A stretch of DNA of 23,431 nucleotides from a virus. The stretch covers positions 1-23,431 of the IMG/VR virus record IMGVR_UViG_3300042540_000114; one strand, written 5' to 3'. Position 1 is the stretch's first letter, and each line of letters begins with the position of its first letter. The translations under genes were made by a program, and so were the position numbers. Under the pieces are notes generated by a model, which did no database searches, was not told where the DNA came from, and saw only the letters and a program-made list of their open reading frames with translations. Shown one piece after another: positions 1,079 through 20,320 of the stretch.

Positions 1079-1233
1079 AGCCTGTATTCATCTTTATCAG
1101 TAAGCAAATGTAACTCCTCAAAGATAAGACGCATTGCAACATTATCGGTCATCGATGGTCTCATACTTCGCTTAGCTGTCAACACAAAAAGTTTACGAAG
1201 CAGTTCAATCTCGCGGTGTTGATCGTACTTCAT
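1075..1233 (-). CDS. Hypothetical small phage protein (52 aa)
   Basis: A 52-aa reading frame starting MKYDQHREIELLRKL and ending TDKDEYRL. Two lines of evidence make it real despite its length: its ATG overlaps the stop of the upstream gene by one base (TAATG at 1235-1231) and its TGA overlaps the next ATG (ATGA at 1078-1075), so it exactly fills the space between two genes in the same operon. It is predicted helical, charged and soluble. Function unknown. Confidence 0.65.
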   Translation of the reverse strand: MKYDQHREIELLRKLFVLTAKRSMRPSMTDNVAMRLIFEELHLLTDKDEYRL

Positions 1234-1934
1234 TAGTATTCATTTTGGTTTTCAATCAGCTCGCGGTAGCGTTCGTATCTATATTCTGTAAACTGAAAAG
1301 GTTTATTTTTGTAAAGTCGGAACCGCTGGTCGTTAACCCACTGTGGCAGTTCATCGTACTCACGCATCAACGCTACTTCAAGTTCACTAGGTTTGCCGCG
1401 TATGATTTCCTTCACCGGCTCTTGTAACATTTTAGCATCTAATTTTGTTACAACGTCCTTCATCGCTTCATTCATTTGCGGGTGTGCAAAGATTTCGTAG
1501 ATGTTGTTGGCTTGTTCTTGGGCTTGTCGCTTTGCAGTGACATACGGTTGTCGTTGTTGGTCGTAAAGTGGAAACCATGCGAGGATTGTTGCCGGGTCAA
1601 TTCGGTTGTATATCGTGCCATATGCACCAACAGCACCGCGATCTAAACATAACTGGATATCTTCAAGCGAGTAAAAATATTTATCCATCATAATCTGTTC
1701 TGCACAAAACTCAATCTGCATCGCGTTCATATTGTTTTGCACGTTCATCAGTTGAGTGCATCGCGTCAGCAACTGAATGATTTTGTCTTTGGTTGTTTGT
1801 GGGTCAAGCTTCTTGAGAAGACCAATCTGGTCTTGTGTTATCGCGTGCTCGACTGATAGCGACTGCTTCGGCGTAAAGTGCATTAGCTTTTGCAACGCTG
1901 TCTGCTGTTGAATTTGAATTTGATTGTTTGCCAT
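1233..1934 (-). CDS. Putative replication-associated protein, helicase-loader-like position (233 aa)
   Basis: A 233-aa soluble protein. The start chosen is the ATG at 1934 (MANNQIQIQQQ); a TTG nine codons further up would lengthen it but is less likely. The N-terminus is Gln-rich. The central part holds a pattern of paired helices followed by AYGTIYNRIDPATILAWF and a Lys/Arg/Gln-rich helix. Such YG-x-x-YNR-x-D-x-x-x-I-x-x-W patterns occur in Bacteroidota phage proteins encoded beside replication initiators. Context and order (just after the replisome-organizer gene) suggest a helicase loader or other replication partner; this is inference, with no Walker motif visible. Its first 131 bases overlap the end of the upstream gene in another frame. 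Confidence 0.6.
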   Translation of the reverse strand: MANNQIQIQQQTALQKLMHFTPKQSLSVEHAITQDQIGLLKKLDPQTTKDKIIQLLTRCTQLMNVQNNMNAMQIEFCAEQIMMDKYFYSLEDIQLCLDRGAVGAYGTIYNRIDPATILAWFPLYDQQRQPYVTAKRQAQEQANNIYEIFAHPQMNEAMKDVVTKLDAKMLQEPVKEIIRGKPSELEVALMREYDELPQWVNDQRFRLYKNKPFQFTEYRYERYRELIENQNEY

Positions 1935-2610
1935 AAGAGTTTGGTTTTTGATTTTTTTCAAATGTATATGCTTTGTTCATCCACTTGCGGACGGTCGCTT
2001 CCCAAGAAACAATTTTTACGCCCCCGGTGGTTTTCCATCCAGTGCTTGTGTAGTGGTCATAACAGTTCTTTGATTCGGTTACAATCTTAGCTTCTGTCCA
2101 TGCACCCGATTTCATATTCAACTCACCCATCAAATTATAAATATCATTTTCGGATGGTGGTGTAAACACCACTCTATTGTTTCTTTGTTTCTTTGTTTCT
2201 TGGTTTCTTTGTTTATCTATGGGGGCAGTGCTGTGTTCAATGCTGTGTTCAATGCCGTTGCTATGCTGTATCAATGCCGTATCCAATGCCGTGTGCAGTG
2301 CTGTGGCTTTTTTGCTACGGCATATTGATATTAAAGTACTGCTATATTGGTTCTTAGATTCTTTGATTATTTCAATGAATCCCCACTTGCATAAATCCTC
2401 AACTGCTGCAAGATAGGTTCGCTTGTTTCCAATATGCAGACCTTCCATCGTTGCATTGGTAGGCAATCCAAACTGCTCTTTCCATCCAAGACGGTTGTTG
2501 AGTTCAATGATCCACATGAACAAAGCAGTGTGCTGGCACTTCACCTCTGAATGCTCAAAGGCAAAATCAAACCACTTCCGAGAAAGGTCGTAACCGTTAT
2601 TAGTTTTCAT
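1804..2610 (-). CDS. Replisome organizer / replication initiator with winged-helix domain (268 aa)
   Basis: Probable DNA-binding initiator that recognises the phage origin and recruits the replicative helicase. Residues 8-100 form a typical Bacteroidota phage initiator N-terminal domain: a helix with RKWFDFAFEH, the W-x-x-L-N-x-x-x-GW segment, a winged-helix core with IGNKRTYLAAVEDL and a beta wing (WGFIEII). Residues 101-147 are a low-complexity linker encoded by the iterons and the 8-bp repeats. Residues 148-215 form a second conserved domain ending in WEATVRKWMNKA, as in DnaD/lambda-O-like replication proteins. The tail is Ser/Asn-rich. The ATG at 2610 is preferred to a GTG at 2637. It is the first gene after the exact promoter at 2750-2720. 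Confidence 0.78.
   Translation of the reverse strand: MKTNNGYDLSRKWFDFAFEHSEVKCQHTALFMWIIELNNRLGWKEQFGLPTNATMEGLHIGNKRTYLAAVEDLCKWGFIEIIKESKNQYSSTLISICRSKKATALHTALDTALIQHSNGIEHSIEHSTAPIDKQRNQETKKQRNNRVVFTPPSENDIYNLMGELNMKSGAWTEAKIVTESKNCYDHYTSTGWKTTGGVKIVSWEATVRKWMNKAYTFEKNQKPNSYGKQSNSNSTADSVAKANALYAEAVAISRARDNTRPDWSSQEA
2179..2214. repeat. 8-bp tandem repeat (GTTTCTTT), candidate DNA-unwinding element
   Basis: The octamer GTTTCTTT occurs at 2179, 2187, 2195 (last base G), 2203 and partly at 2211. The plus strand here is nearly free of A and C-poor, i.e. strongly purine/pyrimidine asymmetric and AT-rich. An 8-bp period is not a multiple of three, so it is conserved as DNA rather than as protein. 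It lies 12 bp from the iterons, as the AT-rich unwinding region does in lambda ori. Confidence 0.6.
2226..2306. repeat. Seven iteron-like repeats (CARTGCYGTRT) inside the initiator gene, candidate origin
   Basis: Seven copies of an 11-bp unit close to CARTGCYGTRT begin at 2226, 2238, 2250, 2261, 2272, 2284 and 2296, a spacing of 11 or 12 bp, about one helical turn. The spacing changes from 12 to 11 and back, so the repeats are read in different codon frames; the protein is therefore not the source of the repetition. They encode the linker of the replisome organizer (residues about 102-128). Position, number and phasing match initiator-binding iterons of lambda-type origins; binding itself is inference. 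Confidence 0.7.
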
Positions 2611-5073: not shown

Positions 5074-5613
5074 TTGTCCGACTGCGTAAGTTATGAAATA
5101 TCAGTGCATTACAAATCATGGTTGGCGAAGGCCAACGGTTTAACCCACGACAAAAACAGGGCAAGCGACCTGGTGCATGAGGTTATTACCCGGCTACTGG
5201 ATAGGCCGCAGCAAGATGTAGTTGATATTGTATGCGGTGGTAAGGTTAGGCAATATGTAGATCGTGCATTATGGTTGTCATGGCACAGCAATAGAAGCGA
5301 CTACGCCACACGCTACCGCAAGTACTACGAACTTATAACAGATAAGGCCGTGGATGATGCCAAACAAGATGAAACATGGCTAGGGCATTTCATAGACGGG
5401 GAGTATTTATACAGCGCAATCGGCAGGCTTAACGAACACGACGCTATTTTGCTGCGTCTATATTCCAAACCTGACTTTGACTATAAAAAACTTAGCGAAG
5501 AGACAGGCATACCCAATGCTTACTTGCGTCTATCAATTCACAGAGCAATCAAACGAATAAGAGAATATGTTCAACTTCAACGTGCATCCAGCCATCCAAC
5601 AGGAGAGGCTTAA
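5074..5613 (+). CDS. Sigma-factor-like protein, probable late-gene regulator (179 aa)
   Basis: A 179-aa protein with the layout of a small (ECF-size) sigma factor. Residues 10-75 resemble region 2: a helix, then KNRASDLVHEVITRLL, matching the D-x-x-Q-E-v-f-x-k-l helix, followed by an aromatic stretch ALWLSWHSNRS. Residues 115-168 resemble region 4: IGRLNEHDAILLRLY, then YKKLSEETGIPNAYLRLSIHRAIKRIREY, a helix-turn-helix. Similar sigma-like proteins occur in many Bacteroidota phages. No ATG is available: the frame is closed upstream by a TAG, leaving TTG at 5074 or GTG at 5104. As first gene of the rightward unit it probably directs or activates late transcription (inference). Confidence 0.72.
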   Translation: MSDCVSYEISVHYKSWLAKANGLTHDKNRASDLVHEVITRLLDRPQQDVVDIVCGGKVRQYVDRALWLSWHSNRSDYATRYRKYYELITDKAVDDAKQDETWLGHFIDGEYLYSAIGRLNEHDAILLRLYSKPDFDYKKLSEETGIPNAYLRLSIHRAIKRIREYVQLQRASSHPTGEA

Positions 5614-17675: not shown

Positions 17676-18272
17676 ATGGAAAAAAGAAAAGTAGTAAAAT
17701 GCGTAATCGATGAAGAGGGTCGTTTAGGCATAACAGCGATGGGCCTTGTAGATAGCCCCGCAATAGAAGAGAACTGGATTGCACTTTCTAAGATGCAGTT
17801 AAGCGCATTGAATGACGAACGCCGTATGCTATACGGTGCTGCGCTCATCCCGGATAAGGAGATTCTGCGCTATGATGAAAAGGGTGAGCCATACTACGTG
17901 TACTTTGAAAAGGCCACAGTAAGTGCTATCGCGCATCAGTTCTTCAAAAAGAATCTGCAACACACAACCAACTTACAACATGAGATTCCAGTAACGGGCG
18001 TGACCGTTGTTGAGTCATGGATTAAAGAGGGCAAGATGGATAAGTCAATGCAGCTCGGACTGTCTGAACTTCCTGATGGCACATGGTTTATCGGTACGCA
18101 CGTAGATGATGACGGTGTGTGGCAAGATGTAAAAGAGGGCAAAGTAAAAGGTTACAGCATTGAAGGATTCTTTAACGAGGTTGGTGTGGCAATGAGTGGC
18201 GTGAAGAACTACGAGGCTGAATTGCTACTGGAGATAGATCAATTGCTTTCTAATGTAAATCCATCCAAATGA
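17676..18272 (+). CDS. XkdF-like prohead protease (198 aa)
   Basis: A serine protease of the XkdF/S78-like phage family, which processes scaffold and capsid proteins during head maturation. Family motifs in order: MLYGAALIPDKEILRYDE at about 51-68, EPYYVYFEKATVSAIAHQF, NLQHEIPVTGVTVVESWI with His102 and Ser114 in the positions expected for catalytic residues, DGTWFIGTHVDDDGVW, and KEGKVKGYSIEGFF at 153-166. Length is normal. It starts 19 bases after the tape-measure stop and overlaps the S8 protease gene by four bases (ATGA). The catalytic assignment is from family knowledge. Confidence 0.85.
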   Translation: MEKRKVVKCVIDEEGRLGITAMGLVDSPAIEENWIALSKMQLSALNDERRMLYGAALIPDKEILRYDEKGEPYYVYFEKATVSAIAHQFFKKNLQHTTNLQHEIPVTGVTVVESWIKEGKMDKSMQLGLSELPDGTWFIGTHVDDDGVWQDVKEGKVKGYSIEGFFNEVGVAMSGVKNYEAELLLEIDQLLSNVNPSK

Positions 18273-20320
18273 AAATAAACGCGGTTAAGTTCAAGGACAA
18301 AAAGTCCTTTGACAAAAACAAAACAAAGAAAAATGTTAAGGCATCTTTTGATGCTTTCGGCATTGTAGTCTTTGAAGATGAGAAGCCCATCGCACCTGAT
18401 GCAACTAAGGTGTCACAGGTCAACGAAGTGGACGGGTCACTAGACCAAATCGCTTCAGGTCTTGCCATATGTATTTGCACTGACCTTAAACAGGCGGTTG
18501 AGTTCTTGACTCTTAAACAAGTCAACATCGTTGAAACGTTTGAATCAACCAACACGCTATTCGTTGAGGTTCCTGCGTTCGCTGTATTCGATGAGTTCTA
18601 CGAATCACTCATGCGCACTAAGTTGTTCATCAGTGTTGAGCCTGACTACATCCAGCCATTCGAGGCTAATGCAGAAATGACTATTGCACAGCAGTGGCAT
18701 TTGAATTTATTCAAGGCACAAGACGTGTGGTCACTCTTGCCGGGTGATGCATACGGTGAAGTGGCAGTGCTTGACATTGCGTGTGATGTAGACCATGAAG
18801 ATTTGCAAGGCACTATTAGCGATAAGTCTTGGAACTGCGTCTATGATACAGCTGATGTGCGTCCGATTAGTGAAAACGAAAAGCATGGCACACCATGTAG
18901 CGGAATCATTTGCGCAAAGACTGGCAATGACACGGGCGTAGGTTCAATCGGTAACAACAAACTGAAAGTGCAATTTTTGCACATCGGTATGAACTCAAAC
19001 AGCGGCGGCGGTTTCTTCACATCGGATACAATCGTAACGCGTGCTGTGAACAAGGCTATTGCTAATCCTGCGTGTAGTGCAATCAGCATGAGTTGGGGCG
19101 GTGGTAACACATACCCAATGTTTGCTAATGCGTTGACACTGGCAAAGAACACAGGCCGTAACGGAAAAGGCATTTGTGTATTCGCATCTAGCGGCAATCA
19201 ATACGCGGCAAGCGTAAACATCAACCCCGCATCGCTTCCAATGGTGCATGCCGTTGGCGCATCGGCTCAAAACAACACACGCGCTAACTTTTCAAACTAT
19301 GGGACAAAACTTTTTGCAGCGGCTCCGGGTGTGGGCCTACCAACTACTGACCGTAGCGGAGCATCAGGGTACAACACTACGTCGAATTATACTAACTTCA
19401 GTGGAACATCTGCCGCCTGTCCTGCTATGGCTGGCTGTGCTGCTGCTATTGTACTTGCTAATCCTGAATTAACGGAAAAGCAAGTGACTGACCTCATCGC
19501 ATCTACTGCTATTAAGAGTGGCGGTTATGTGTACGATGCAGCGGGCAGGTCGCTTGAACTTGGATACGGTGTTGTTGATTTGTATGCGGCAGTTGTCGCT
19601 GCAAAAGGTAGCACGGGTGAACCAACTCCACCACCTGCTGAAACAGTCAACTTGTTTGGCACTATTGCATCACCTGCGTCAACGCTTCAAGGCTCGCAAG
19701 TAACAGTTAGTTACACCGTGCAGCTTGACAAAGTGCGCACAGTGGACACAATTACAAATATTGCTGCCGAGTTCGTGCGTCCTGATGGTGCGAAGTCAAC
19801 TTTCTACACTGGCAATGTCACGATCGCGAAGGGACAAACCACATTTACAAGCTCACTAGTCTATAACATTCCAAACAATGTGACGGGCGTGGGTAAATTC
19901 AACCTTTATGTTGATGTGCAAGGTACAATAGCGGAGAGCAACGAAAGCGATAACAGCGCAACCACTGCAATCAATATCACCGCACCTATCCCAGTTGGCA
20001 ATTTAGACTTAGAATGCATCTGCACAGGTTACACTTGGCTTGCACCTGACCGCGTGCGCATGGGTATACGCGTAACAAATCGTGGAGCTGCTGTCGTGAC
20101 TAGCTATAAACTTAAGTGGGAATTCGCAGGACGCACTGGCACATGGGATATTGCACGCACATTGAACACTGGACAAAGTGCATCGACTGGAAATGTGATG
20201 TACCCATCTGCAACCACTACATGGCCGCAAACATTCAAAGTTTCAGTGGTAAGTGTGAACGGACAGCCGGATAATAATCCTGCAAATGACGTTGGCACTT
20301 GCGTAGTAAACGCTATGTGA
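18269..20320 (+). CDS. Subtilisin-like (S8) serine protease with CARDB-like C-terminal domains (683 aa)
   Basis: A full S8 protease encoded inside the head-gene cluster. Catalytic triad: Asp169 in VAVLDIACDVDHEDL, His206 in KHGTPCSG, Ser381 in FSGTSAACPAMAG; Asn310 (SSGNQ) is the oxyanion residue. The canonical D-T-G at the Asp is D-I-A here. Residues about 55-130 look like an inhibitor-I9-type propeptide. A TPPP linker at about 452-456 leads to two beta-sandwich domains of the CARDB type (about 462-575 and 580-683), each with the typical end D-N-x-x-x-x (ESDNSATT, DNNPANDVG). No signal peptide is visible, so it stays inside the cell or in the virion. Possible roles: capsid/scaffold processing beside the XkdF protease, or a virion-carried enzyme. 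Confidence 0.88.
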   Translation: MKINAVKFKDKKSFDKNKTKKNVKASFDAFGIVVFEDEKPIAPDATKVSQVNEVDGSLDQIASGLAICICTDLKQAVEFLTLKQVNIVETFESTNTLFVEVPAFAVFDEFYESLMRTKLFISVEPDYIQPFEANAEMTIAQQWHLNLFKAQDVWSLLPGDAYGEVAVLDIACDVDHEDLQGTISDKSWNCVYDTADVRPISENEKHGTPCSGIICAKTGNDTGVGSIGNNKLKVQFLHIGMNSNSGGGFFTSDTIVTRAVNKAIANPACSAISMSWGGGNTYPMFANALTLAKNTGRNGKGICVFASSGNQYAASVNINPASLPMVHAVGASAQNNTRANFSNYGTKLFAAAPGVGLPTTDRSGASGYNTTSNYTNFSGTSAACPAMAGCAAAIVLANPELTEKQVTDLIASTAIKSGGYVYDAAGRSLELGYGVVDLYAAVVAAKGSTGEPTPPPAETVNLFGTIASPASTLQGSQVTVSYTVQLDKVRTVDTITNIAAEFVRPDGAKSTFYTGNVTIAKGQTTFTSSLVYNIPNNVTGVGKFNLYVDVQGTIAESNESDNSATTAINITAPIPVGNLDLECICTGYTWLAPDRVRMGIRVTNRGAAVVTSYKLKWEFAGRTGTWDIARTLNTGQSASTGNVMYPSATTTWPQTFKVSVVSVNGQPDNNPANDVGTCVVNAM

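Follow-up and report, generated by a model that had tools for sequence, protein, structure and literature searches.

Origins of replication inside initiator genes are already known, and the iterons of phage lambda are long and palindromic. The lambda ori lies in gene O and, like the locus described here, carries iterons and an AT-rich tract midway along the initiator gene (PMC7466680). Among lambdoid phages, Stx phages included, iteron number differs and alters the length of the O protein, and lambdoid iterons mutated with the protein unchanged lose function (PMC7466680). A similar layout is found in oriL of SPP1, where direct repeats and an AT-rich unwinding element lie in the organizer gene 38, whose product G38P acts with a helicase loader and a DnaB-type helicase (PMC6316719). 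ORF13 of TP901-1 and Rep2009 of Tuc2009 are organizers binding direct repeats in their own genes, which serve as the ori (PMC8965321). In RK2 (PMC4081077) and at the DnaA-trios of oriC (PMC6669920), binding sites stand beside AT-rich, short strand-specific repeats, as they do here; RK2 TrfA binds one strand of repeated 13-mers (PMC4081077).

The window analysed here is an entire IMG/VR record (IMGVR_UViG_3300042540_000114), a linear fragment of 23,431 bp from a tailed phage. A sequence-only reading had likened a repeat-bearing stretch of its initiator gene to the lambda origin. The likeness holds in the build; it fails for family membership, as no PF04492 (Phage_rep_O) match was obtained with the window protein or any of 36 family members and the iterons are non-palindromic. 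Compared with lambda, the units are 11–12 bp long, direct and read in three frames, the AT-rich element is a ladder of 7–8-bp period at a fixed 16 bp, and the N-terminal domain is not Phage_rep_O. The proposed origin thus works like the lambda ori, yet is not a Phage_rep_O member by domain or iteron type. From SPP1 it differs in the repeat unit and in having no oriR-like second copy in the window; tblastn with the window protein returned 10 phage records, none from Bacillus, and SPP1 was not among the matches listed (40 of 72) for the relative L171. TP901-1 and Tuc2009 have hosts of another phylum and showed no sequence kinship in the searches made. RK2 and the DnaA-trios use 13-mers or trinucleotides instead of 7–8-mers, whereas the window's initiator has no AAA+ domain and its candidate origin lies within coding sequence.

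The putative initiator gene and its genomic setting

The gene and its two domains are located as follows.

1804–2610, minus strand: initiator (replisome-organizer-like) gene, an ORF of 268 aa with its ATG at 2610
2323–2610, minus strand: N-terminal winged-helix domain, aa 1–96, the proposed iteron binder (AlphaFold, Foldseek)
1807–2163, minus strand: the initiator's C-terminal domain with its tail, whose type pairs with the type of the downstream protein's N-terminus

AlphaFold modelled the whole protein as a confident N-terminal winged helix, a low-confidence disordered linker and a helical C-terminal domain, in agreement with the earlier placement of the repeats in a linker between two domains. 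The N-terminal domain consists of helices and a beta-wing, with a pLDDT of about 90 over most of its length. Foldseek retrieved weak MarR/RepA-NTD winged helices from the PDB (best E 0.035) and, from the BFVD viral models, phage replication initiators, one replisome organizer and one lambda gpO N-terminal entry. A PDB sequence search with the window protein found no relatives, Pfam and NCBIfam searches gave no named replication family, its PHROG matches were all to unnamed families, and profile comparison with a PF04492 protein reached 7.5% probability. Among viral contigs, the window protein has 48 direct relatives. Two distant family members match PHROG 270/9474, “replication initiation protein”, over both domains (1e-15 to 1e-17), and L171 has its C-terminal domain in common with proteins of E. 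coli and Acinetobacter phages annotated as replication protein O. Strong indirect support, from the PHROG matches of relatives, the shared C-terminal domain, the gene neighbours and the BFVD models, points to the window protein as a putative replication initiator.

The phage most likely infects a bacterium of the phylum Bacteroidota, since relatives of the window protein sit in genomes of Sphingobacterium, Pedobacter, Dyadobacter, Pelobium, Pontibacter, Chitinophagaceae and Lacinutrix, and the cultured Polaribacter phage Danklef also encodes one. The window encodes a VRR-NUC protein and an SSB-like protein, and in the near relative G001 terminase and RecE-like exonuclease genes lie nearby. No polymerase or helicase was noticed among the listed G001 ORFs; because the search covered just some of them, we go no further than to infer that the phage relies on the host replisome. 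Elsewhere in the window, positions 5074–5613 (plus strand) encode a sigma-factor-like protein (PHROG 1740, E 9e-7) where two gene blocks diverge, possibly a gene-expression switch, and positions 18269–20320 (plus strand) encode a 683-aa protease (PHROG 3677, E 2e-32) inside the structural gene block.

Iterons and the adjacent ladder

Linker DNA between the two domains carries two repeat arrays separated by a short spacer.

2223–2304, minus strand: seven iterons, consensus ACRGCAYTGNAY, starting at 2223, 2235, 2247, 2258, 2269, 2281 and 2293
2216–2230, minus strand: fixed spacer, the initial base of the last core (2231) and that of TAAAC (2215) being 16 bp apart
2179–2215, minus strand: AAAC ladder, the proposed unwinding element, with GTTT on the plus strand at 2179, 2187, 2195, 2203 and 2211

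Both arrays were recovered by TRF where they had first been noticed, and they are the two top-scoring tandem arrays in the window: the iterons at 2229–2305 (period 12, 6.6 copies) and the ladder at 2177–2214 (period 8, 4.8 copies, 93%). On the coding strand, the iterons share the core GCA[CT]TG and follow one another in steps of 12-12-11-11-12-12. The phasing of seven units at 11–12 bp is well beyond chance, as a chain of 7 units (each matching at least 9/12 and spaced 11 or 12 bp) is present, and no chain longer than 2 arose when the whole window was Markov-shuffled 100 times. The rest of the window has no second cluster; matches there are single and scattered, and the window-wide total of 58 is close to the chance mean of 48. 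The claim that neither repeat keeps the codon frame stands for the 11-bp steps and the 8-bp ladder and falls for the 12-bp iteron steps. The two 11-bp steps break the frame and the 12-bp steps keep it, so that the iteron unit is read in three ways, in frame 0, then 2, then 1 (TALD / QHS / IEHS).

The ladder is A-rich and nearly T-free on the coding strand, with AAAGAAAC-type units at 8-bp spacing. The described AT-richness and strand asymmetry were borne out: the tract is the most pyrimidine-rich 40-mer on the plus strand of the window (33/40) and lies at the 97.5th percentile of the window for weak pairing, yet it is not the weakest site. Just beyond the ladder, at the domain-swap point, a hairpin-capable palindrome around GGTGTAAACACC occupies 2155–2173. 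On the other side of the array, one further element was recorded.

2317–2330, plus strand: candidate inverted iteron ACGGCATATTGATA, which exceeds ACGGCATTGATA by two bases and is speculative as a site

The codons there are invariant in relatives (TGC CGT AGC AAA AAA in 35/35).

Conservation of the linker DNA

For comparisons across relatives, a family set was assembled by homology. Measured against codon shuffles with the protein held fixed, GCA cores spaced 11/12 bp apart were in excess in the window (6 pairs observed, 1.03 expected, p 0.0015), and 26 diverged genes together had 131 such pairs against 18.7, in all three frames. Family-wide, under the same constraint, AAAC pairs were in excess at 8 bp (76 versus 30.4 expected) and at 7 bp (28 versus 10.5). 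In 35 type A alleles, synonymous diversity fell from 0.477 over the N-terminal domain to 0.115 over the linker and rose again to 0.511 over the C-terminal domain; the corresponding P values for the linker against its flanks (2e-9 for the N-domain, 4e-12 for the C-domain) overstate independence because the alleles are related, the contrast itself lying within the same alignments. The 20 type B alleles gave 0.506, 0.104 and 0.533, and in three more N-terminal cassettes with weak DUF1376 similarity the linker value was 0.03–0.06, so the dip recurs in type A and four other N-terminal cassettes. RNA structure gave no signal as a cause of the frozen synonymous sites (z −0.92) and was rejected as their explanation.

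Some linker residues do vary, e.g., Glu/Asp at 121 and Gln/Pro at 142, with repeat lengths constant. Many type B-like genes have steps of 12-12-11-12-11-12, typically running through frames 0, 2 and 1, and in far relatives (30–50% identical) the step pattern persists although the encoded amino acids differ. The same repeat spacing in dozens of distantly related phages means that the DNA itself is preserved and not the protein alone, as had been argued from the single sequence; the comparison of relatives suggested there, repeat conservation against linker variation, came out on the side of the repeats.

In 22 of the 26 diverged genes, a distance of exactly 16 bp separates the last GCA core from the first TAAAC. 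Two others have 28 bp, which looks like 16 + 12 with the last iteron unit decayed, one has 11 bp, and in one the iterons are absent. The relative L039 has lost exactly one 12-bp iteron unit. Among unusual copies, the gene at L047:2995-3387 ends at 130 aa midway through the iterons, without a ladder, and is either an assembly fault or a real deletion. A Pontibacter homologue (L215:4998-5792) has no GCA iterons; it has GC-rich repeats in the linker together with a TAAAC ladder, and may represent another iteron specificity.

Domain cassettes and a DNA-only pattern scan

The phage group of the window combines five N-terminal types (A–E) with three C-terminal types and three tail types, and the break between them falls close to the ladder.

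2162–2164, minus strand: cassette boundary at gene nt 448, with L035 matching the window at about 53% before it and 100% after it

Up to gene nt 447, L035 shares about 40–75% identity with the window, rising to 90–100% from nt 448, and the comparison with L024 is the mirror image. As this exchange point is about 10 bp past the ladder, the N-terminal domain, iterons and ladder exchange as one cassette. Moreover, the base two positions ahead of the iteron core tracks the type of N-terminal domain: 77% of A-like units have C there, and 85% of B-like units have A. In the set L084–L126 (e.g., L099, L101, L117), N-terminal domains weakly similar to DUF1376 are joined to the same C-terminal domain and have linker repeats of their own, CCACGGCAT or ACATATG units plus GAAAAT hexamers, with synonymous diversity near zero; these are probably separate origin cassettes.

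A pattern defined on DNA only, GCA-N9-GCA-N12-W-TAAAC-N4-AAAC-N4-AAAC, was scanned over all IMG/VR and hit 77 loci, 60 of them inside genes with the family's N-terminal domain. The remaining 17 are a single orthologous segment in another, unrelated long protein and hence count as one chance event. Since the pattern was derived from the same family, 37 of the 60 genes are re-finds and the real test is provided by the 23 genes new to the set, which are 40–64% identical to their nearest known member.

The proposed downstream partner

The gene following the initiator overlaps it.

1233–1934, minus strand: downstream overlapping gene, 233 aa, the proposed helicase-loading partner (position and type linkage)

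In 75/75 genes the initiator's tail type corresponds to the N-terminal type of the protein encoded downstream, and both types assort freely with the N-terminal cassette. The matching is suggestive of protein contact, although physical linkage by itself could explain it because the two genes overlap. In distant relatives the gene at this position encodes DnaB in L164, a DnaC-like AAA+ protein in L208 and a primase-type protein in L171. A fold search with the window's downstream protein returned no match and no recognisable loader fold, so the name helicase loader is taken from position and linkage only.

Proposed origin function and alternative explanations

The sequences directly show the repeats with their conservation at the DNA level and fixed geometry, the exchange of cassettes and the linkage to the partner, and on these grounds the linker is very probably a lambda/SPP1-like origin within the initiator gene, opened by binding of the N-terminal domain to the iterons and by a partner-delivered helicase. 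The N-terminal winged helix would bind the seven 11–12-bp iterons and form an oligomer, which would grow toward the ladder and force this A-rich DNA open at a fixed 16 bp past the last iteron. Recruitment of the downstream partner would then fall to the C-terminal domain and tail, and the partner would deliver a DnaB-type helicase of the host or the phage. Binding, melting, helicase delivery and origin firing we infer, with lambda O (PMC7466680), SPP1 G38P (PMC6316719) and TP901-1/Tuc2009 (PMC8965321) as the analogies for binding, opening and loading, and RK2 TrfA (PMC4081077) and the DnaA-trios (PMC6669920) as further ones. Given the conserved 16-bp spacer and the 7–8-bp rungs, the oligomer may well engage the ladder at a set register. 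A more tentative and rather doubtful extension is that the AAAC ladder is read as a single strand, one rung per initiator subunit, as a phage counterpart of DnaA-trios or plasmid 13-mers that would suit a small winged-helix initiator without an AAA+ domain and be carried in traded initiator-plus-origin cassettes. The proposed check by GC skew was uninformative either way: GC and AT skew over the window and seven relatives showed no origin signal, and their sign follows gene direction.

Other roles for the conserved DNA have to be weighed against an origin. A winged-helix protein might simply repress its own gene through the repeats, and it is true that MarR-type regulators lead the fold search and that one cultured relative is annotated as “transcriptional regulator”. 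However, a promoter search inside the array found none, and a repressor is not expected to have a 16-bp step to an 8-bp A-rich ladder or C-terminal domains shared with replication protein O, which makes an operator in place of an origin improbable; autoregulation could occur alongside one. Exchange junctions directly after the ladder and freely assorting cassettes would also fit conserved DNA that serves as an anchor for domain mosaicism between phages. Such an anchor leaves unexplained the iteron periodicity, the 16-bp geometry and the retention of the arrangement in far lineages with other C-terminal domains, and we consider it less probable still; recombination at the linker may be a consequence of an origin there.

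Least probable are two further explanations, which we place on a par. Disordered linkers do carry simple tandem repeats, and AlphaFold confidence is low here, as it would be for a low-complexity linker expanded by slippage with no role for the DNA; against this stand the codon-shuffle controls, the three-frame reading and a step pattern kept across proteins 30–50% identical, and the freezing of synonymous sites rules it out. The terminase gene lying about 1.1 kb away in one relative could point to a packaging (pac) signal, or another cis signal read by some other protein, but the signal changes along with the N-terminal domain of the initiator. The repeat geometry is, moreover, closer to that of origins than to that of known pac sites.

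Novelty and implications

The probable in-gene origin within the window's initiator gene is accompanied by likely cases in other phages. The linkers of L230:1483-2220 (E. coli phage vB_EcoM_APEC) and L232:1411-2145 (Acinetobacter phage IME284) contain GTCGGAAAATCCGAC repeats followed by an A-rich tract, and these replication protein O genes likely also hold origins. Both Phage_rep_O proteins share their C-terminal domain with L171, and differ from the window's family in the palindromic repeats and the PF04492 N-terminal domain. What seems unreported is the combination of 11–12-bp iterons read in three frames, a 16-bp spacer and a 7–8-bp AAAC ladder, traded as a cassette in phages of Bacteroidota; a literature search, subscription papers excepted, found no origin report for this phage family.

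Overall, the candidate origin can be read from sequence through a short DNA rule that is valid across many phages and prophages. The rule puts a general question within direct reach of experiment, namely how fixed spacing lets a simple initiator link its binding of duplex DNA to strand separation. The swapped initiator/origin cassettes form a natural set for work on specificity, and shuttle vectors, of which the phylum has few, could be developed from the locus.
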